NCBI GenBank assembly: GCA_017483805.1
Contig: JAFUUL010000024.1
Location: 1 to 54,874 of the forward strand
Direction: 5' to 3'
Length of the DNA: 54,874 nucleotides
Source of the DNA: Prevotella sp.
Lineage (GTDB): Bacteria > Bacteroidota > Bacteroidia > Bacteroidales > Bacteroidaceae
Shown: piece by piece, positions 1 through 9,381 of the stretch
How the letters are laid out: the number at the start of each line of letters is the position of its first letter
Numbering within the stretch: the first letter of the stretch is position 1
Position numbers and translations under genes: made by a program
The notes under the pieces: generated by a model
The model's input: only the letters and a program-made list of their open reading frames with translations
What the model was told of the DNA's origin: nothing
Databases searched by the model: none

Positions 1-1092
1 GAGACGCCGTATGTGAAACTCATCAGCCAGTTGTTTGGTGACCGTCAGATGATTGCCAACGCTACGGGTTGCTCGTCTATCTACTCTGCTTCTATTCCTT
101 CTACTCCTTACACGAAGAACGAGAAGGGTCAGGGCCCAGTCTTCAACAACTCTCTGTTCGAGGACTTCTGCGAGTTCGGTCTCGGTATGGCTCTGGGTAA
201 CAAGAAGATGAAGGAGCGCGTAGCCAAGTTGCTCGCTGAGGCATCTGAGGGTGCTCCCGCTGAGTTCAAGGCTCTCGCTGACGAGTGGATTGCCAACAAG
301 GACGATGCCGACAAGACCAAGGAGATTGCTCCAAAGCTTCGTGCTTGCATCGCCGAGAGCGCTGCTAAGGGCTGTCCTACTTGCAAGGAGCTCCAGACTC
401 TGGATCACTATCTGGTTAAGCGCAGTCAGTGGATTATCGGTGGTGACGGTGCCTCTTACGATATCGGTTACGGTGGTCTCGACCACGTAATTGCTAGCGG
501 TGAGGATGTAAATATCCTGGTACTCGATACTGAGGTTTATTCTAACACTGGTGGTCAGGCCTCTAAGGCTACCCCACTCGGTGCTATTGCACAGTTCGCT
601 GCTCAGGGTAAGCGCATCCGCAAGAAGGATCTGGGTATGATTGCTACCACTTATGGTTATGTATATGTAGCTCAGATTGCCATGGGTGCTGACCACGCTC
701 AGACCTTGAAGGCTATCCGCGAGGCCGAGGCTTGGCACGGACCTTCCATCGTCATCGCCTACGCTCCCTGTATCAACCACGGTCTGAAGGCCAAGGGCGG
801 CATGGGTAAGAGTCAGGCCGAGGAGAAGAAGGCCGTCGAGTGCGGTTACTGGCACCTGTGGCGCTACAATCCCGCTCTGGCCGAGGAAGGCAAGAACCCG
901 TTCTCGCTCGACTCGAAGGAGCCTAACTGGGCAAACTTCCACGACTTCCTGCTCGGTGAGGTCCGCTACCTCTCCGTCAAGAAGGCTTATCCCAACGAGG
1001 CCGAGGAGCTCTTCGCCGAGGCCCAGAAGATGGCTCAGCTCCGCTACAAGACCTACGTCCGCAAGACGCAGGAGAACTGGAGCAACGAGTAA
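1..1092 (+). CDS. nifJ: Pyruvate:ferredoxin (flavodoxin) oxidoreductase, C-terminal part (5' end outside window)
   Basis: The enzyme decarboxylates pyruvate to acetyl-CoA, CO2 and reduced ferredoxin in the cytoplasm. The reading frame is open from base 1, so the gene enters from the left; 363 residues of a protein usually near 1190 are visible. The thiamine-diphosphate domain is clear: GDGASYDIGYGG, then VYSNTGGQ, and the cysteines in NATGCSS and APCINHG that ligate the proximal 4Fe-4S cluster. The partner CxxC lies just beyond the window edge and is visible in the second copy. The gene ends KTQENWSNE and is followed by two hairpins. It is presumably the working copy, because a second start-less copy of the same 3' region lies at 5963-7096. 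Confidence 0.95.
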   Translation, partial: ETPYVKLISQLFGDRQMIANATGCSSIYSASIPSTPYTKNEKGQGPVFNNSLFEDFCEFGLGMALGNKKMKERVAKLLAEASEGAPAEFKALADEWIANKDDADKTKEIAPKLRACIAESAAKGCPTCKELQTLDHYLVKRSQWIIGGDGASYDIGYGGLDHVIASGEDVNILVLDTEVYSNTGGQASKATPLGAIAQFAAQGKRIRKKDLGMIATTYGYVYVAQIAMGADHAQTLKAIREAEAWHGPSIVIAYAPCINHGLKAKGGMGKSQAEEKKAVECGYWHLWRYNPALAEEGKNPFSLDSKEPNWANFHDFLLGEVRYLSVKKAYPNEAEELFAEAQKMAQLRYKTYVRKTQENWSNE

Positions 1093-1103
1093 AAACCGTG
1101 TGC

Positions 1104-1175
1104 TCAGCGGTTCCGCCGCTGACACACCCATTCATAAACAAGCGGCGCACCCCATCGGATGCGCTGCTTTAATTT
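1104..1175 (+). terminator. nifJ terminator hairpins
   Basis: Two hairpins follow the stop codon. TCAGCGG at 1104-1110 pairs with CCGCTGA at 1116-1122. AGCGGCGCA at 1141-1149 pairs with TGCGCTGCT at 1160-1168 (one G-T pair), and a T-rich stretch follows. Both have counterparts after the second nifJ copy. Confidence 0.7.
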
Positions 1176-1214
1176 TTGTCGCCGTTGAGATTTTTGCCGT
1201 CGTCTCAGATGCTG

Positions 1215-1356
1215 GTGTCAACGGCGTTGAAGGTGCTACCGGCGGCGAGGGTGTGAGTGTCAACGCCGTTGAGGGTGTCAACGGAGGCGCGAAATGGGTG
1301 TCTACGGCGTTGAGGGTCTTGGTCGCGGGGCGAAACACGGTTTCTACGGCGTTGGC
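1215..1356 (+). repeat. Degenerate interspersed repeat, core GTGTCAACGGCGTTGA
   Basis: Five related copies begin at 1215, 1257, 1275, 1298 and 1340. They share the core GTGTCWACGSCGTTGAGGGT with substitutions, and the third copy is shortened. Spacing is irregular (18-42 bp), unlike a CRISPR array. No coding function is evident. Confidence 0.6.
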
Positions 1357-1393
1357 ACTATGTTTGGCGGCGCGAGTGGCGGTTTTCAGGGCG

Positions 1394-1412
1394 CAAAAAG
1401 CCCCGCCGGGGA
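1394..1412 (-). terminator. Terminator of the island operon
   Basis: Read on the minus strand this is CCCCGGCGGGG followed by CTTTTTG, a compact GC hairpin with a T tract. It lies 39 bp past the stop of the last operon gene. Confidence 0.7.
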
Positions 1413-1450
1413 TTTCCATCGGGATTTATAGAATATGGGCAAAAAGAATG

Positions 1451-2068
1451 CTATTTCTTCGATTTTTGTAGCGGTTTTACATTCTTGCTAATTGAATCCA
1501 ATAATTGTTTTTGTTCTTTCAATTCTGATTCCACTTTTTCAATACGTCCATCCTGCTTAATCAATTCTGCTGGTACTTTTACGACTTCTTGATATGATAG
1601 AAGCCAAATTATACCGACTATGGCAACGAGCGTAGAAATAGCTGCCCACAAAAACCATTTTGGGACTTTCTTGTCAATCCTCATGCGTAGGTCTTTAATT
1701 TCATCTCTAATCCCATCTGATGATTTATCAATTTTAGCTTCAAGTTCTTTTCTGAGAGCAGTATGCTCCATGTCGTTCTTGTCACTCAAGGATGTAAATT
1801 TATCTTCTAACTTACTATAACTTTCCCAAGAAACGCCCATTGTATTTTGCTCATAACCCTCAGAAGAGCTACTTACAGCACCTCCCTGATACGAATGAGC
1901 TTTCTCCTTATCAGATTTAGTACTCTCATGCCTGTTTGATCTCCTTGAAGGTTTTGAATAAGAACTGAACTTTCGAAAGCTTTGAGGCAAATCGAAATCT
2001 TGAACAGGCTGACTTGATTGAGAATGCTGTTGAGATAGTTTGCGATTTTTATTGCTCTTGTTGCTCAT
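1451..2068 (-). CDS. Membrane-anchored coiled-coil protein of unknown function
   Basis: The product has 205 residues. Residues 1-80 are low-complexity, rich in Ser, Lys and Gln, and probably disordered. Residues 82-135 and 170-195 have heptad-like charged patterns typical of coiled coils. One hydrophobic segment at about 137-158 (WFLWAAISTLVAIVGIIWLL) should cross the inner membrane; there is no signal peptide. Its start codon shares one base with the stop of the upstream gene (TAATG), so translation is probably coupled. It is the last gene of the island operon. No family is recognised. Its position in a nuclease operon would fit a membrane sensor or effector of a defence system, which is inference only. 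Confidence 0.75.
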   Translation of the reverse strand: MSNKSNKNRKLSQQHSQSSQPVQDFDLPQSFRKFSSYSKPSRRSNRHESTKSDKEKAHSYQGGAVSSSSEGYEQNTMGVSWESYSKLEDKFTSLSDKNDMEHTALRKELEAKIDKSSDGIRDEIKDLRMRIDKKVPKWFLWAAISTLVAIVGIIWLLSYQEVVKVPAELIKQDGRIEKVESELKEQKQLLDSISKNVKPLQKSKK

Positions 2069-2793
2069 TAAAATTCTGCAAGATTAGAATATACGTCTTT
2101 TTCAACAGCCAATGACAGGTTGTACACATCTTTTATTAAACCCTTGTCATCTATATCCCGAACTTCATTTGTCAAGTAGTTGTCAGTATCTATTACAATA
2201 CCGACATGCTTTTCGCATCCATCAATATCGAACTCCTTTTGATAGAAAGGGTCGTCTTCACTGAGTGGCCCCGTAATATACATTCCGTTTTGATAGGTAA
2301 GCGTAAAGGATAAATCCTTTGTGGGATATTTATCAAAGAAGAATTTGGAGGGGAAAGCCTCTTTATAATGATTGAGAACAGACGAAAAGTCATGTGATGC
2401 TACTTTGTAACTCCCAATAATCCTACAACCAATTCTCTGAATTGTTAACGTTTTAAGAACCCCTAAAACAGCATCGTATGCTTTCCTAAAGTTTTGGAAG
2501 AAACTATCAATACTATCTATTTTGTAAGAGATATAGTTCAGCCGATTGAAGGTGACAAAAACCACATTCTTCGACTTGTCCTTGTTTTCATGATCTCTCA
2601 CAGTAACTTCTCCTGCATTTATCTCCCAGTGGAATTTCCCAAAACATTTGGAATTCTGAATAGCCTCAGCTATTTGCCCTCGCTGGTCAAGCATGGTTAC
2701 TACGGGATTAAACCGAATCTCTATGATAATCTTGCGGTTGCCTATGTGCTTATTTTCTATGTTGTCTTTCATCTCATTAACTTTAGATTGCAT
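2068..2793 (-). CDS. TIGR04255-like protein of unknown function
   Basis: The product has 241 residues. The start is the ATG at 2793, which overlaps the upstream stop by 11 bp; the frame stays open further upstream, but only as an overlap with the endonuclease gene. An ATG at 2772 is the alternative. The layout resembles the sporadically distributed TIGR04255 family: an N-terminal IIEIRFNP strand, a central FVTFNRLNYISY segment with a following helix, and a TIQRIGCRIIGS strand. That assignment is from memory of the family pattern and is tentative. The protein is soluble with no membrane segment. It is tightly coupled on both sides, so it probably acts with the endonuclease and the membrane coiled-coil protein. 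Confidence 0.6.
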   Translation of the reverse strand: MQSKVNEMKDNIENKHIGNRKIIIEIRFNPVVTMLDQRGQIAEAIQNSKCFGKFHWEINAGEVTVRDHENKDKSKNVVFVTFNRLNYISYKIDSIDSFFQNFRKAYDAVLGVLKTLTIQRIGCRIIGSYKVASHDFSSVLNHYKEAFPSKFFFDKYPTKDLSFTLTYQNGMYITGPLSEDDPFYQKEFDIDGCEKHVGIVIDTDNYLTNEVRDIDDKGLIKDVYNLSLAVEKDVYSNLAEF

Positions 2794-3454
2794 TAATAAT
2801 ATACGTCTCGCTCTCAGGGAACAGCAGAGCGCGGTCTTTCTTGCCGACCTTGAAGGAATAGGTGTCGCCGCCGGAATCTCGGCACAGCAAGAAATCGACG
2901 GTGATTTTGCCCTGCTCCAGAAGGATGTCGAACTGCGAGGGGATGGGGTTCTTGGTGTGGTCGATGGTGGTGACGCGGAAATATTCTTTGTCGCGGATGA
3001 TTCGGCTGTCAACATCTATCCAGAAAGTCTCGTGATGCTTGGTTAGAAGGCGGTCGTGCAAATCCATGAGTTGCCATACGGAAACGTCGTTCAGCTTCTT
3101 GTAGATTCCCTCGTCGTTGGCGGTCATGGCATATTCATTCGCTTCGAGCCAGTCTTTAGCGTAGTCTACGTTCAGCCCCAACCCTTGCGGATTAGGTTTT
3201 AATGCAGAAAGTGTTACGTGCAGGCATTTATGCGTATATCCATCGGGAATGTATCCGTATCTTTCGACGATGGCCTTGCCGCTCTTCAATTTACTTAGCG
3301 GCCAGTTTGTAGATTGTGTAAACAGATTGCTTCTGACATTGGCTTTTTCGCGCTTGCTTTTCAATTCTATGCCTTTATAGTCGGGTTGCTTGGAATCGTT
3401 CATTGGAATGCCGAGAACAGTTTCAACCGTGCGGCCTATGCCCGTGTCGGCCAT
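2783..3454 (-). CDS. MvaI/BcnI-family type II restriction endonuclease
   Basis: The product has 223 residues. The conserved opening TGIGRTVETVLGIP is followed by PDYKGIELKSKR, which gives the catalytic triad D25, E30 and K32 of the PD-(D/E)XK fold in the D-x4-E-x-K spacing of MvaI and BcnI. Members of that family act as monomers on CC-N-GG-type sites; the site here cannot be read from sequence. The first usable ATG sits almost on the TGIG motif, so the roughly 25 N-terminal residues seen in MvaI are missing. The codons upstream reach a TAA after nine codons. The gene lies 35 bp after the LPD28-like gene in the operon. Confidence 0.85.
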   Translation of the reverse strand: MADTGIGRTVETVLGIPMNDSKQPDYKGIELKSKREKANVRSNLFTQSTNWPLSKLKSGKAIVERYGYIPDGYTHKCLHVTLSALKPNPQGLGLNVDYAKDWLEANEYAMTANDEGIYKKLNDVSVWQLMDLHDRLLTKHHETFWIDVDSRIIRDKEYFRVTTIDHTKNPIPSQFDILLEQGKITVDFLLCRDSGGDTYSFKVGKKDRALLFPESETYIINAI

Positions 3455-3489
3455 GACTTCAGAAGGAATCTCAGACGTTACTTAAATGG

Positions 3490-3786
3490 TTAATAATAAT
3501 GGCCATATCTTACACAGAAACTCTTTGGATTTCCATTTTCGCCAAAAGGAATCTTCGTTTTGGTTACAAATGTACCAGAATGATTTACAAGGACATGTGA
3601 TTCTATACATGCAAGGTAGTTGTTCCCATCATCTGATTCGCGAAACTCATACATATTGTAACCACGGGGGCATTTTTCGTGGTTGAGACGACAATCTAAA
3701 TACCAGCCTCGTATGCAGAGTTTATGCCCATCGGCAGTTTCTATCCCGATGTAATATTTGTCGAAGTCTTTGAAAAACTGTTTCAT
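3490..3786 (-). CDS. Small LPD28-like protein
   Basis: This 98-residue product starts at the ATG at 3786, which overlaps the TGA of the upstream gene in an ATGA junction; that coupling fixes the start. The segment MYEFRESDDGNNYLAC followed by VLVNHSGTFVTK resembles the LPD28 domain, a small domain found in large polyvalent phage and mobile-element proteins and as single proteins in Bacteroidetes. No catalytic residues are apparent. It sits between the two nucleases of the island, so a role as an adaptor or inhibitor is possible, but this is inference. Confidence 0.55.
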   Translation of the reverse strand: MKQFFKDFDKYYIGIETADGHKLCIRGWYLDCRLNHEKCPRGYNMYEFRESDDGNNYLACIESHVLVNHSGTFVTKTKIPFGENGNPKSFCVRYGHYY

Positions 3787-4922
3787 TCCTTGTCGTTTAG
3801 TACATTCCATCCCCATTTGTCGAGCAAGTCGAGGATATGAGGAAAGTTGAAGCTGCCCCACTGATTGCAGACGGCAAACCTAACACCGTCCTTTGTCCTT
3901 AATAGCTTGTCTTCGTCCATCACGTAGCGAGTCAGCAGGTCTTTTAGATTGTGGTCGGAATTGTAGATGTCGTCCAAGCGCCTGACTACGCCGTATGAGC
4001 CTTGCAGCTCATCGGGAAACACCTGCTCCAATTGCACGAAGGTGATGCTGGGGTGAGCGGAGAGGTAGGCTGCGACGATTTCACGGACAAATTTACCCTT
4101 GCCGAAGTAGTTCATGCCTCCGTCGATGGAATATTTCGTGGTGTCGCGACCTTTCTTGTTCCTTCGCCCTTGCTTTTGCAGGACGTAGCGGGATACGGCT
4201 TCTGGTTGCGTCGTTTCGGGCTTGGCTTCCTCTTGGACTTCATCATTGACATTTGATGCTTGGAATCGATAGGCCTCAAAGAATCGGTTGGCTGCGGTTT
4301 CTTCGCACTTCTTATAGTTGACGAAGTAATCTATGAGCAAGGATTTGATGGCCTTATTGTCATCTTCTTTAAGATTGTCGGCAAAAGAATCAAGCGTGCT
4401 GCTGGAATGTATTTCCTTGAAGCGTTCCACGCAGAAGGCTTTGATGCGTTCGGAGGCAAACATGGAACGGGCGAAGAAGTCGATGAACTTCCAGCCGTTA
4501 GCAGCCTCGGTGTCAATGTCTATCTGCATAACGGAGGTTGGCAGAGCATCGCCGTTGTCATAGAAAAGTCGAATCTCGTCGCCGATGTATAGACCGAATA
4601 CCACTTGACGCATCCGCATGTAGGAAAGCAACTGCTCTTCCTGTCGCGTAGTTAGATTATTTGTCGGCTGCTTCACCTCGACGACGAAAACAGACTTGCC
4701 GTTAATCTTAAAGGTGATGTCCGGCTCCAGTTGGTTGCTCGCACCGACGTTGATGCGCTCCTTGGGGCAAATCTCGCCTTTCGCCTTGCTCCATCCTAAA
4801 GCTCGGAAGGCCGCTTCAGTTTTCTCCTGGTAGGGCTGTTCCAATATTTCCTTCTCCTTCGCTTCCACAAGGTCGAAAGCGAAGTCCTGCCATTTCGAGG
4901 TGTTCAGTTCATTGATGGTCAT
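3783..4922 (-). CDS. HsdR-N-like PD-(D/E)XK nuclease with C-terminal accessory domain
   Basis: The product has 379 residues. The N-terminal half looks like the nuclease domain found at the N terminus of type I restriction R subunits: E36, then EPDITF with D68, then VVEVKQP with E82 and K84. There is no helicase motif, so it is not a full HsdR. A linker rich in Glu, Pro and Lys (about 230-260) leads to a C-terminal domain with KYSIDGGMNYFGKG, HPSITFVQLEQVFP and QGSYGVV. I recall this module from other restriction-associated proteins, where it may bind DNA or another protein. The start lies 10 bp after the methyltransferase stop. The gene adds a second nuclease active site to the operon. Confidence 0.7.
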   Translation of the reverse strand: MTINELNTSKWQDFAFDLVEAKEKEILEQPYQEKTEAAFRALGWSKAKGEICPKERINVGASNQLEPDITFKINGKSVFVVEVKQPTNNLTTRQEEQLLSYMRMRQVVFGLYIGDEIRLFYDNGDALPTSVMQIDIDTEAANGWKFIDFFARSMFASERIKAFCVERFKEIHSSSTLDSFADNLKEDDNKAIKSLLIDYFVNYKKCEETAANRFFEAYRFQASNVNDEVQEEAKPETTQPEAVSRYVLQKQGRRNKKGRDTTKYSIDGGMNYFGKGKFVREIVAAYLSAHPSITFVQLEQVFPDELQGSYGVVRRLDDIYNSDHNLKDLLTRYVMDEDKLLRTKDGVRFAVCNQWGSFNFPHILDLLDKWGWNVLNDKE

Positions 4923-4932
4923 AAGATATAAT

Positions 4933-5835
4933 TTAGGCGGCTAATCTGTTAGCGGTGATATTCTCGTCGGAAATCGTAGCGAGGAATTCATTGAATTTCT
5001 CTGCGAAAAGGTCGTTGTCAATGTTCGACACCGTCTTTTCGTTGATGATGTCGGTTGTGATGCGCTCGCGCTGCTCGTTGCGGCGAAGCATATAGATGCC
5101 GTGGCGAATGGTGCTGATGTAACGGTTCGACTTGCTTGTGCGATAGTCAATCTGGCGCGTCACGTTGCGAAGCTGAGAGTCAAGCAGGTCGAAGAATTGC
5201 TCCTTGTATCCGTTGGTCTTTTCTTCGTCGCTCGTTATTTCCATCTGGAGTTTCAGCAGAAAGGCATTGGCGAGGAATGACGACGTGGATTTCTTTAGCA
5301 ATTTATCGGCAAACGACAGGAAAGTGCCCACGGCGCGGTCGTCAATGATGGAACGCATTTCGCGCATAATCTCCACCTTGAAGCGGCCATTGTCCTTTGT
5401 CAGCAGCCCCTTCACGTTCTCCATCACGAAGTATTTCGGGCGCAGGGCGCGGATGACTTTCAGGTAGTGGTTGAACAGCCCGTCGCGCTTGTCGAAACGT
5501 TTGCGGCGCCCCGAGAGACTGAACGACTGGCAGCTGGGGCCGCCCGTCACCACGTCCACCTCCTTGCCGTTGAGTGCCTTCAACAGATGCGGCAGGAAAG
5601 TCGGCGACATGATGTCCTCGGTGATGAATTTCGTGCCCAACCCCAACTGCTCATTGTAGCGCACGCGGTGGGTCAGCTCGCAGTTCTCGTTAATGTCGCT
5701 TGCCAGCACGAAGTCGTAATATTTGTGGTCGGTGTAAGCCTGCATGAATCCCTCGCTGATGCCGCCCGCCCCAGCGAACAGGTCAACGAAAGTCACAGGT
5801 TTCCTGCCTTGTATAAAGTCCTTTTTCTCAGCCAT
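4933..5835 (-). CDS. C5 cytosine-specific DNA methyltransferase, C-terminally truncated
   Basis: The product has 300 residues. Motif I (FVDLFAGAGGISEGF, residues 16-30), motif IV with the catalytic Cys102 (GGPSCQSF) and motif VI (MENVKG, E139 N140 V141) are present. After this comes a helical region like the insert seen in longer Bacteroidetes relatives, and the protein then stops at ITANRLAA. Motif VIII (QxRxR), the target-recognition domain, and motifs IX and X are all missing, and no other frame nearby supplies them; the next gene starts 10 bp on. Unless a separate subunit completes it, as in the split AquI enzyme, it should not methylate DNA. It is the first gene of the island operon. Confidence 0.8.
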   Translation of the reverse strand: MAEKKDFIQGRKPVTFVDLFAGAGGISEGFMQAYTDHKYYDFVLASDINENCELTHRVRYNEQLGLGTKFITEDIMSPTFLPHLLKALNGKEVDVVTGGPSCQSFSLSGRRKRFDKRDGLFNHYLKVIRALRPKYFVMENVKGLLTKDNGRFKVEIMREMRSIIDDRAVGTFLSFADKLLKKSTSSFLANAFLLKLQMEITSDEEKTNGYKEQFFDLLDSQLRNVTRQIDYRTSKSNRYISTIRHGIYMLRRNEQRERITTDIINEKTVSNIDNDLFAEKFNEFLATISDENITANRLAA

Positions 5836-5962
5836 TGATTATATCTTCACTTTTCGCCCGAAAATTACTCATTTTTTTGCAGAATCACTCACTTTGTGCC
5901 CACTTTATTATTCTTTTGCACAATTTCGCCCATACCAGCCCTTTATTTCCCCACATTATTCT
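5836..5962 (-). promoter_or_regulatory. Promoter/leader region of the island operon
   Basis: This AT-rich 127-bp region lies between the methyltransferase start and the nifJ-derived repeat. On the minus strand GGGCGAAA occurs twice and related GTGAGTGATT and ATGAGTAATT words occur near it, so a regulator binding here is plausible. TAATTTTC resembles a weak -7 box. No controller (C-protein) gene is present. Confidence 0.35.
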
Positions 5963-7096
5963 CTGTTCGAGTTCTCTGGCGCTTGCTCTGGCTGCGGTGA
6001 GACACCGTATGTGAAGCTGATTTCTCAGCTCTTCGGCGACCGTCAGATGATTGCCAACGCTACCGGTTGCTCGTCTATCTACTCTGCTTCTATTCCTTCT
6101 ACGCCTTACACGAAGAACGAGAAGGGTCAGGGTCCTGTCTTCAACAACTCCCTGTTCGAGGACTTCTGCGAGTTCGGTCTCGGTATGGCCCTCGGTAACA
6201 AGAAGATGAAGGAGCGCGTGGCCAAACTGCTCTGCGAGGCTTGCGAGAAGTGCGACGTCACTCCTGAATACAAGGCTCTCGCCGAGGAGTGGATTGCCAA
6301 CAAGGACGATGCCGACAAGACCAAGGAGATTGCTCCGAAGCTGCGTGCCGAAATCGCCGCCTGCGCTGCCAAGGGTTGCGAGATCTGCAAGGAACTGCAG
6401 ACCCTCGACCACTACCTGGTTAAGCGCTCACAGTGGATCATCGGTGGTGACGGTGCTTCTTACGACATCGGCTACGGCGGTCTCGACCACGTCATCGCCA
6501 GCGGTGAGGACGTAAATATCCTCGTGCTCGATACTGAGGTTTACTCCAACACTGGTGGTCAGGCCTCCAAGGCTACTCCGCTCGGTGCCATCGCTCAGTT
6601 CGCTGCCCAGGGCAAGCGCATCCGCAAGAAGGACCTCGGCATGATTGCCACCACTTATGGCTACGTCTATGTCGCCCAGATTGCCATGGGTGCTGACCAC
6701 GCTCAGACCCTGAAGGCCATCCGCGAGGCCGAGGCATGGCACGGACCTTCCATCGTCATCGCCTACGCTCCCTGTATCAACCACGGTCTGAAGGCCAAGG
6801 GCGGTATGGGCAAGAGCCAGGCCGAGGAAAAGAAGGCTGTGGAGTGCGGCTACTGGCACCTCTGGCGCTACAACCCCGCTCTGGCAGAGGAAGGCAAGAA
6901 TCCGTTCTCCCTCGACTCTAAGGAGCCGAACTGGGCAAACTTCCACGACTTCCTGCTCGGCGAGGTCCGCTACCTCTCCGTCAAGAAGGCCTACCCCAAC
7001 GAGGCCGAGGAACTCTTCGCCGAGGCCCAGAAGATGGCCCAACTCCGCTACAAGACCTACGTTCGCAAGCAGGCCGAGGACTGGAGCAACGAGTAA
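5963..7096 (+). pseudogene. nifJ: Duplicated nifJ 3' fragment without start
   Basis: Similarity to the nifJ product starts at LFEFSGACSGCGETPY and runs to the stop (KQAEDWSNE). About 377 codons are open with no frameshift, but there is no start codon, promoter or N-terminal two thirds, so it cannot make the enzyme. The CxxC of the proximal cluster, the GDG and VYSNTGGQ motifs are intact. It differs from copy 1 by many synonymous changes and by a patch after MKERVAKLL in which this copy has CEACEKCDVTP and is two residues longer. Intact frame plus silent divergence suggests an old host 3' end displaced by an incoming allele. Confidence 0.85.
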
Positions 7097-7105
7097 AAAC
7101 AGTAA

Positions 7106-7177
7106 GGTCAGCGGTTCTTCCGCTGACCCACCATCCATACAAAAAGGAGCACCCGACTATTCGGATGCTCCTTTTTT
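7106..7177 (+). terminator. Terminator hairpins after the second nifJ copy
   Basis: GGTCAGCGG at 7106-7114 pairs perfectly with CCGCTGACC at 7120-7128. GGAGCA at 7146-7151 pairs with TGCTCC at 7166-7171; an inner CCGA/TCGG stem lies inside, and T6 follows. Both are counterparts of the hairpins after copy 1. Confidence 0.8.
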
Positions 7178-7523
7178 CAGGATATACATCATTATAGTTC
7201 TCATTTACTATATTATTTGTAATTCGTAAAAACAACGAACAAACAGGCGATAAGAAAAGTGCTGTACTTTTACGAACAATTAACATATTCATTTGTTCGT
7301 TGTCCAATGCTTGTTGGTTTTCTATCTTCTTTAAACAACAAATTGTACAGACATTGGGATGTATATCATGGTCTCTCAGATTTCTGCCCATAATAAAGAG
7401 CAATCCCTCCGCTTTCACCTCTATTGTTTATAGTTAGAAGAACTTCATGTTATTTTTAGTGACACTCCCTATAATAACCAATATGACGAAATTACAAAGG
7501 ATTTTTTGAAAAAGATTTCTTCA
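7178..7523. other. AT-rich intergenic region, nothing recognised
   Basis: These 346 bp lie between the duplicated nifJ terminator and the stop of the next minus-strand gene. An open frame on the minus strand from 7418 runs across the terminators into nifJ and has no recognisable composition or motif. I see no gene, repeat or RNA signal here. Confidence 0.5.
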
Positions 7524-8588
7524 TTATCGCTCCCATCTGCTCAGTTTGTAGATCGTTTCTGAGTTTTCGCCGTGCGTGCGGAGTTCCATGTCGGAACTGC
7601 TGAGTTTATAGACAGTGAACTGGAAGATAATCGACGGACCTGAGGTCTCGGTGGCGTAGGTGTAGAGCCGCAGCGTGGTGTCGCCCGTCTTCTCGTCATA
7701 GCGGATGGTGTAGGTGCCGTTGGCTACCAACTTGTCCTTGCCTGCAGCGTTGTCGAAATGGCGAATGGTGAAGTGGCTGTTGTAGAAGTCGTAGCAGTAG
7801 CCGCTCTGGCTGCGGTCGTAGCGAGTGACGCCTTCGCCGATGAGGTTGGTGGCAATCAACTCCTGCTCGTCGAGGAACCACACGCCTTGCAACGCGTAGT
7901 CGGTCTGCTGGCGGTGCTCCTTCTCCACCTGCGTTTCTTCACGTTCCTCGGCAGCAGCGTACTGGGCATTGCCTTGGAAGGTGTAAACAACGGGCTGGAA
8001 GCCTTCGAGCGGCTCATTGTCTATCAGCACCTGACCGACGCAGATGTTGAACACCAACGCCTCGTTCTCCTTGACGAAGTTGCCCGTGTATGTGCCCGTG
8101 AAAAGGAGCGTCAAGCCGCTGTAGGTGACGGGCTGAGTGCGTGATTCCCGCTGACGCGCCGCCCCGTAGCCTTTCAGCGGTGTGGCCATGCGCTCATCGG
8201 CTACCATCTGAGGCTGTAGCACGAATCGGGCATCGCCGCCTTTCTCAATAGCCTCAAACTGATAGGTGGCATAGACCTCGGCATAGCCCAGCGTACGAAT
8301 CTTCTGCGCAATCGTCGCGTCCTTCACCTGCTCGGCAATCGGTTCGAGCGGCAGGCTGATGGTCAGCCCCTCGGCCGAGCGGGCGGTGTAGCCTTTGAGG
8401 GTCTGGCGGTCTGCCTTGTCCTTCTGACCGTAACGGAGTTCGCCGCTGTAGTTGTTCTTCATTTCGAAGAGGGCGCGCTGGACATCTCTGCCCGAAACCG
8501 TCTCTTCATCGTCGTCGCTGCTGCAAGAGGCGAGGGAGAAGGCAGCAAGCGTCATCAACATGATTCTCCAAATCTTCATTGTTTTCAT
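7524..8588 (-). CDS. Lipoprotein, DUF4840-like, with C-terminal lipocalin-like domain
   Basis: The product has about 354 residues. The start MKTMKIWR at 8588 gives a lipoprotein signal peptide with lipobox LASC followed by acidic residues (SSDDDEE), a known outer-membrane and surface export signal in Bacteroidetes. The longer open frame upstream adds a non-signal extension and is rejected. The N-terminal domain (VQRALFEMKNNYSGELRY onward) resembles DUF4840, tentatively. The C-terminal 120 residues (LQGVWFLDEQELIATN to YKLSRWER) look like a small beta-barrel lipocalin-like domain. It starts 19 bp after the thioredoxin-like gene and is probably co-transcribed with it. The function is unknown. 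Confidence 0.75.
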   Translation of the reverse strand: MKTMKIWRIMLMTLAAFSLASCSSDDDEETVSGRDVQRALFEMKNNYSGELRYGQKDKADRQTLKGYTARSAEGLTISLPLEPIAEQVKDATIAQKIRTLGYAEVYATYQFEAIEKGGDARFVLQPQMVADERMATPLKGYGAARQRESRTQPVTYSGLTLLFTGTYTGNFVKENEALVFNICVGQVLIDNEPLEGFQPVVYTFQGNAQYAAAEEREETQVEKEHRQQTDYALQGVWFLDEQELIATNLIGEGVTRYDRSQSGYCYDFYNSHFTIRHFDNAAGKDKLVANGTYTIRYDEKTGDTTLRLYTYATETSGPSIIFQFTVYKLSSSDMELRTHGENSETIYKLSRWER

Positions 8589-8607
8589 TTGCGGTATATT
8601 TTTGATG

Positions 8608-9381
8608 TTATTCTGCGTCTGCCTCCTTAATCTTTGCCAGCAGTTCAGCACGTTTATCCTCACTCGTGCCGTGGACGGCGTAGCGGACGATGCCCTGCTT
8701 ATCGACCACGACGGTGAAGGGGAAACCCTCGGTGCCTATCCACGACATCATGTCCTTGGCCTCGACGAGATGCGTCCATGTGAAGTGGTGCTTGTCGGTT
8801 ATACGCTTGGTCAGTTCGGCATCGTGGTAGGTGGCAGAGAAGAACATCACATTGGGCAACTGCTCCTTCCACGTGGAGAGTTCGGGCATTTCGGCACGGC
8901 AGGGGCCGCAGCCGGAGTACCACAGGTTGAGCACCATCACACGGCCTCGGACGCTGTCGTTCGTCCATACTTGCCCGTCAATATCCTTCTCGCTGAACTG
9001 AGGGAACGGCTCACCGGCCTTTGGCGAGTAGAATGTGCCGTCGGCTTTCACGTTTGCTCTTGTCAGTTCGCCCATCTCATGCATCATGTTCAGGCCGTTC
9101 AGGAACTGGTCGGCATTGTGGACTTGCTCACGCGGGATAGCCTGACGGATAAGGGACTTGGGCAGCGTGGCATTGACATTGATGACGACGAGGCTGTTGC
9201 CCTCCTTGTCTTTCAGTCGCATGATGGACTTCTCACCGTCTGGCAATTTAGGCATTTTACGGAAGAAATAGCCGTTGGAGAGAAACTTAGGGATAACCGT
9301 GTCGATTCTTTCTTCTTGTGCCGTCGCTCCGAGTGACACGATGGCTGCGAGGGCGAAGGCTGTAATTCTTAATTTCTTCAT
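8608..9381 (-). CDS. TlpA-like periplasmic thioredoxin-fold protein
   Basis: The product has 257 residues. A cleavable signal peptide (ending GATAQ) is followed by an N-terminal domain of about 110 residues and then a thioredoxin-like domain with the redox pair in WYSGCGPCRAEMP and the cis-proline region GFPFTVVVD. It should act as a thiol-disulfide oxidoreductase in the periplasm. The N-terminal domain is not recognised; AhpC/TSA-type Bacteroidetes proteins often carry such extensions. A promoter box lies 29 bp upstream, and the downstream lipoprotein may be its partner or substrate. Confidence 0.88.
   Translation of the reverse strand: MKKLRITAFALAAIVSLGATAQEERIDTVIPKFLSNGYFFRKMPKLPDGEKSIMRLKDKEGNSLVVINVNATLPKSLIRQAIPREQVHNADQFLNGLNMMHEMGELTRANVKADGTFYSPKAGEPFPQFSEKDIDGQVWTNDSVRGRVMVLNLWYSGCGPCRAEMPELSTWKEQLPNVMFFSATYHDAELTKRITDKHHFTWTHLVEAKDMMSWIGTEGFPFTVVVDKQGIVRYAVHGTSEDKRAELLAKIKEADAE

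Follow-up and report, generated by a model that had tools for sequence, protein, structure and literature searches.

Two divergent nifJ 3' ends flank a partly decayed restriction-type gene cluster in a Prevotella draft genome

Introduction

Phages 21 and e14 integrate at icd in E. coli, where they bring a replacement 3' end and displace the original one, and restriction-modification (R-M) systems reportedly insert with long target duplication, an observation associated with Nobusato et al. 2000. R-M insertion with long, variable target duplication is also cited in PMC3031569 and PMC4978471. A further route, homology-facilitated illegitimate recombination (HFIR), is proposed, and called rare, in passages of PMC5361080 for effector modules of the type VI secretion system (T6SS) that displace older 3' regions, and such displacement is described for T6SS effector-immunity arrays of V. 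cholerae and for Rhs loci (PMC5361080; PMC3240628). Circularization followed by a single crossover is presented as another fate of DNA in E. coli conjugation (PMC3240628), and merodiploidy through transformation has been documented in pneumococcus (PMC3784515). Here, we analyzed a stretch of 54,874 bases (contig G000:C116, hereafter the window) from a draft genome of Prevotella sp. (199 contigs, estimated 91.7% complete and 7.2% contaminated), in which the 3' part of nifJ, the gene for pyruvate:ferredoxin oxidoreductase, occurs twice around a cluster of restriction-type genes. No such structure was found in the titles and abstract openings of literature on nifJ with a genomic island or insertion.

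The locus appears to share with HFIR products one homologous anchor and one illegitimate end, older 3' parts left behind, and cargo that comes with an alternative 3' end, but here a housekeeping oxidoreductase gene serves as the anchor, its two 3' ends look equivalent in function, and the cargo is a defence cluster lying after a terminator. As in R-M insertion with long target duplication, restriction-type genes lie between long direct host repeats and there is no transposase, whereas here divergent alleles form the repeats and the R-M genes are damaged. The replacement 3' end and displaced original 3' end recall phage 21 and e14 at icd, but the window has no integrase match, a much longer overlap, and no fixed crossover site.

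Two nifJ 3' ends and their divergence

As a first reading of this DNA from sequence alone (hereafter the sequence-only reading) had noted, the nifJ 3' end and its two-hairpin terminator occur twice in direct orientation around a nuclease/methyltransferase cluster. The analysis places the two ends at 1-1175 and 5961-7178, and the restriction-type segment between them indeed comprises six minus-strand genes that include an MvaI-type domain and a C5-methyltransferase. The features of the two ends are as follows.

1..1092, plus strand: nifJ 3' part, left copy (pyruvate:ferredoxin oxidoreductase); last 363 codons to the stop, with TPP_enzyme_C
1098..1181, plus strand: two-hairpin terminator of the left copy, with T-rich tail; fold z -4.7
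5961..7096, plus strand: nifJ 3' part, right copy; 5' truncation at codon ~817, nifJ start lacking
7106..7178, plus strand: two-hairpin terminator of the right copy; fold z -9.2

Long direct repeats of host sequence, as known for R-M insertion with target duplication, do flank the insert: positions 1-249 pair with 5999-6247 at 89% identity and 260-559 with 6264-6563 at 86%, while a gapped alignment pairs 1-1162 with 5999-7168 (~88% nucleotide identity in a search of the same genome, 96% amino acid identity). Intact nifJ genes match the right copy from 5961-5963 onward. The repeat is far beyond chance, yet the two copies are clearly different alleles. Over the 363 shared codons, 124 differences were distributed as 14, 13, and 97 at first, second, and third codon positions, giving a dN of 0.035 and a dS of 0.56 (Nei-Gojobori method, NG86). 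The identity of the two copies (0.886) was compared with that of 496 pairs among 32 orthologues of other species, picked for >84% identity to the right copy; the median of these pairs was 0.873, and 68% of them lay at or below 0.886. Moreover, a comparison with 50 reference rows showed that, in each of 10 sliding windows, both copies have a nearer neighbour among these rows than in each other. A first phylogenetic tree placed the right copy in a supported group of 24 rows (97/98) without the left copy. Because they are as divergent as orthologues of separate species and differ mostly by silent changes, the copies behave, as judged from their sequences, as xenologues rather than as a target duplication.

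The sequence-only reading had instead proposed the latter, an insertion with a 1.2 kb target duplication; in this classical scheme, the second copy of the 1.2 kb would stem from the resident nifJ itself, and the two copies would have diverged afterwards. Such an origin would account for long direct repeats around a restriction-type segment, insertions of this kind with long, variable target duplications have been described (PMC3031569), and an approximately unbiased (AU) test left the two copies as sisters unrejected (p 0.23). Nevertheless, the copies are no closer than orthologues of different species, their changes are mainly silent, and a start-less fragment should not for so long keep the 98% protein identity that the right copy has to nifJ of genome G199; the repeats do not look like near-identical or sister copies of one target. 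The substitution pattern and the sliding windows rule out target duplication followed by drift as the leading explanation, though the AU test keeps sister copies unrejected, and we hold the classical duplication to be distinctly unlikely. Clean excision through the direct repeats, also suggested earlier, is possible in principle, but with arms ~88% identical its product would be a hybrid gene. The host gene may be kept functional, as that reading also proposed, although the left copy reaches the contig edge and the nifJ middle is missing from the assembly.

Proposed mode of entry

We consider it moderately probable that foreign DNA, consisting of a nifJ 3' part, its terminator, and a partly decayed defence-gene cluster, entered by homology-assisted integration. 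The donor would have been another species of the same genus, whose fragment carried its own versions of these three parts. One end of the fragment would have recombined homologously inside nifJ, and the other end, just upstream of the methyltransferase gene M', would have been joined to codon ~817 of the resident nifJ with ~1 bp in common (5960/5961). The product would be a left nifJ made of a resident 5' part and a foreign 3' part, followed by the island and by the displaced resident 3' end without a start (the right copy). Alternatively, the fragment may have circularized and then undergone a single crossover, which would give the same structure, and a dedicated recombinase would not be required. 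The two divergent copies, the junction, and the broken genes are present in the assembly; we infer the homologous crossover, which would lie left of the contig edge, and likewise the direction of transfer and the lack of a helper recombinase at entry. An alternative 3' end, cargo, a displaced truncated 3' end, no integrase match, and near-zero junction homology would be the expected product of HFIR.

If real, this process would mean that defence genes can be acquired by way of homology within a core metabolic gene, without mobile-element machinery, and that a second, foreign or displaced, 3' end remains as a readable scar. It would offer a simple and searchable route of defence-gene turnover in Prevotella-like and other Bacteroidales, and direct repeats around R-M genes would have to be tested for xenology before being named target duplications.

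Junctions in the window and in other genomes

At 5960/5961 the island meets nifJ with ~1 bp of homology, so that one end lacks substantial homology, as in HFIR. Such a junction could also come from an assembly chimera, in which the left 5.96 kb (the nifJ end of another organism plus the island) was misjoined in a metagenomic tangle of nifJ sequences. This is the main rival because the window begins at a contig edge inside nifJ: its base 1 is base 1 of the contig, and the left copy runs off the contig and may be longer than the part seen. The sole nifJ 5' piece in the assembly (family positions 1-78, 84 residues, 270 bases) is located at the extreme end of contig C103, and a search of the same assembly for the nifJ middle (~730 codons between the C103 and C116 pieces) gave weak paralogue matches only. 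The 7.2% contamination of the bin and the look of the two copies as belonging to different species also fit a chimera. On the other hand, k-mer assemblers require shared words to join sequences, whereas the junction has only ~1 bp in common with nifJ, and a similar junction with different cargo occurs in two other genomes (G095 and G246, below). Because many inspected contigs, chosen since their matches looked partial, end inside nifJ, we keep the chimera as an unlikely but by no means negligible explanation.

To describe nifJ copy numbers, a C-terminal query of 151 amino acids was searched at E <= 1e-40 in 319 genomes of the genus. Results revealed matches in 212 genomes, 208 of them single and four double (G000, the present genome, and G086, G095, and G267), which bears out the expectation that related genomes mostly have one nifJ C-terminal copy. 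In G086 and G267, the double matches come from different contigs and represent contig-edge pieces. Among the matched genomes, 17 are listed with four or fewer contigs, and two copies occur in none of these, a count that speaks for the chimera.

In G095, a single 18.3-kb contig (C59) carries nifJ amino acids 934-1192 at one end and 171-1047 at the other; the two pieces are equal at 311 of 346 overlapping positions, and the ~15 kb between them includes ordinary-looking genes. A divergent operon of three genes, which match PADLOC NsnA, NsnB, and NsnC, adjoins the truncated start of the second copy (amino acid 171). The case of G246 was found by inspection: on contig C17, a nifJ copy from amino acid 811 adjoins an antisense open reading frame (ORF) of 67 amino acids that resembles the start of a HipA-like kinase (by eye, with no family search), while contig C72 holds nifJ amino acids 1-1090, up to the contig end. 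A further 18 loci with short nifJ frames all proved to be either pieces at contig edges or full-length genes interrupted by a frame change or by a stretch that did not align, and none was internally truncated.

The truncation points of the window and G246 are ~18 nt apart, and that of G095 is ~1.9 kb away. The closeness of the former would suit a site-specific integrative element that supplied a replacement nifJ 3' end and has since lost its integrase, and such an element would produce the same geometry, a replaced 3' end with the native end displaced. Such an element is opposed by the distant G095 truncation at amino acid 171, by the lack of any motif common to the three junctions by eye, and by the island proteins: all six were scanned against Pfam, NCBIfam, PADLOC, and PHROGs (for M', the PADLOC listing shows 25 of 58 families), and the matches listed include no integrase or transposase, as the sequence-only reading had stated. 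Among the explanations weighed here, we give this one the lowest probability.

It is tempting, if rather doubtful, to regard nifJ, a metabolic gene that is conserved and mostly present once, as a recurrent docking site in this genus for recombinase-less defence cassettes. Such cassettes, with nifJ 3' segments on their flanks, would move between species by homologous recombination in these arms, preserve one complete gene, and leave as a scar a xenologous nifJ end truncated at its 5' side; recurrence at nifJ beside defence genes is the part worth testing. A general defence hotspot downstream of nifJ was rejected, considering that in 41 such loci (the G095 and G246 cases included, one locus without an ORF) the first larger ORFs were mostly housekeeping or surface-like, by eye and not by family scan.

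Resident copy and flanking genes

The right copy and the 270-base 5' piece on C103 have the same two nearest species, G199 and G253 (the 5' piece is almost as near to G129); the nearest species of the left copy are different ones. Because these two species are common to the right copy and the 5' piece, the comparison, though on a short stretch, points to the right copy as the resident one and to the left copy as foreign. Arguing against residency of the right copy, rpoB of this genome is nearest, among the genomes compared, to G263 and G309 and not to G199. In addition, the right-flank genes of the window have 89% identical counterparts in G174 that adjoin a HipA-like gene (by eye) and not nifJ within the 19.5 kb read, which makes it uncertain which copy is resident. 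The incoming and the resident anchor are nevertheless different alleles with a between-species difference, as expected in HFIR, the residency of each being less sure.

The location of the right flank in G174 could also reflect a chromosomal rearrangement between nifJ alleles in the lineage, with the defence genes as bystanders, and the downstream neighbours of nifJ do vary among the relatives listed. We rate a rearrangement as very unlikely, since it leaves unexplained why, in each of the three cases, the truncated copy adjoins a defence operon (window and G095) or an ORF that looks HipA-like by eye (G246).

A set of 130 nifJ loci, several per genome, was fetched for comparison. The island genes occur in none of them, and a single locus (G150:C56) has a relative of a right-flank gene: a thioredoxin-like gene with 81% amino acid identity, which lies in opposite orientation ~2.1 kb downstream of nifJ, an arrangement that gives a faint hint that the right flank belongs to nifJ.

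Several of these results weigh against the homology-assisted integration favoured here. The AU test leaves the copies as possible sisters, and once eight long-branch rows were removed from the tree, no supported group contained either copy. The homologous crossover is not visible in the assembly, and no syntenic empty site with a single nifJ copy was found among the loci compared; the right-flank genes in G174 do not lie beside nifJ. Two copies are missing from the 17 genomes with few contigs, and G095 and G246 are themselves draft genomes in which contigs end within nifJ. Finally, such events are called rare in work on HFIR (PMC3240628; PMC5361080).

Within the right flank, a thioredoxin-like gene (window 8608-9381) is absent at the matching place in G174, where the alignment breaks at 8612 and 9408, but has counterparts of 94% identity at different locations in G034 and G366, which suggests that it moves as a single gene. 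A stretch of ~100 bases over a lipoprotein leader (window 8503-8612) recurs at ~72-94% identity in many genomes of the genus and has no special fold. Within nifJ itself, the genes at three loci, L227 (G309:C2), L228 (G263:C4), and L253 (G246:C17, one copy), have a different, longer segment in place of the counterpart of window 211-409, which is a natural variant inside the enzyme.

Island genes and decay of the restriction-modification pair

The segments between the two nifJ ends are listed below.

1178..1450, no strand: spacer with G+C 0.58 and degenerate 42-nt repeats
1451..2068, minus strand: 205-aa protein, coiled-coil/membrane-like by eye; weak match to phrog_7090 (phage family, function not known), 2e-6
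2068..2793, minus strand: 241-aa protein; no family matched
2783..3454, minus strand: R', MvaI/BcnI-type endonuclease domain; PF15515, 7e-52
3490..3783, minus strand: LPD28-domain protein, frame opens to 3861; PF18843, 6e-13
3783..4922, minus strand: 379-aa protein, PADLOC PDC-S57 (8e-15); HSDR_N below threshold (19.8 bits against a cut-off of 25.1)
4933..5835, minus strand: M', C5-cytosine methyltransferase, N-terminal half only; matches its 627-aa relatives up to about amino acid 296-298 (4942)
5836..5960, no strand: upstream region of M', G+C 0.36, abutting the truncated nifJ

The G+C content ranges from 0.36 to 0.58 across these segments, and the island is therefore composite. A phage or plasmid origin was considered and rejected, the 241-aa and S57 proteins, the only two island proteins searched there, having no confirmed relatives in viral contigs or plasmids.

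The sequence-only reading likened the cluster to R-M cassettes, and this holds in part: an MvaI-type endonuclease domain and part of a C5-methyltransferase are present, but both are truncated and no complete pair lies inside. The closest known arrangement is the MvaI/BcnI-type Type II R-M system. R' is a clear PF15515 member, and M' belongs to a C5-methyltransferase family that neighbours such domains; among the relatives of M' from one scan of genome contigs (best 80 of 425), the MvaI-type domain is also present in 63 of 80 loci, though in L099 only weakly and on the other strand, and in L079 and L087 partially. The window differs in that M' is without its C-terminal half, R' without its N-terminal part, and the gap is occupied by the unrelated S57-LPD28 pair. 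The S57, LPD28, 241-aa, 205-aa, and nifJ proteins of the window had no match in those 80 loci at E <= 1e-4.

In all 12 of the 80 loci that were read in detail, the methyltransferase frame is 624-634 amino acids, and M' keeps ~296-298 of 627, falling short of the full-length C5-methyltransferase that a functional system of this type requires. A search of the same genome with a full-length methyltransferase gave C-terminal matches only in other Dcm-like genes, and we infer that the modification function is dead. R' is without ~180 N-terminal residues of its L029 relative (a frame of 404 residues against 223), and DNA homology to relatives ends at 3470. The ~1.47-kb S57-LPD28 segment occupies the place of ~1.5 kb of the two R-M genes in relatives. 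R' has the endonuclease catalytic domain (PF15515) and aligned to R.MvaI (2oa9) across a stretch with the acidic and lysine residues regarded as catalytic. Because M' and R' are decayed, the cassette probably does not function as a selfish R-M unit, and their truncation rules out a working R-M operon.

The S57-LPD28 pair was seen twice directly after a truncated N-terminal piece of this methyltransferase family, in the window (3471-4941) and in L180 (G032:C77, 2832-4486). These pieces end at about amino acid 296 in the window and at amino acid 62 in G032, and are 87% identical over 62 amino acids; the arrangement could reflect a shared composite with later deletion or a pair prone to land in such genes. 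The G032 relative of the S57 protein passes the HSDR_N cut-off. The G+C-rich spacer from the left nifJ terminator to the island contains degenerate 42-base tandem repeats at 1214-1317. The genome also encodes another, diverged S57-like protein at G000:C28:44685-45632, with 37% identity over residues 53-376.

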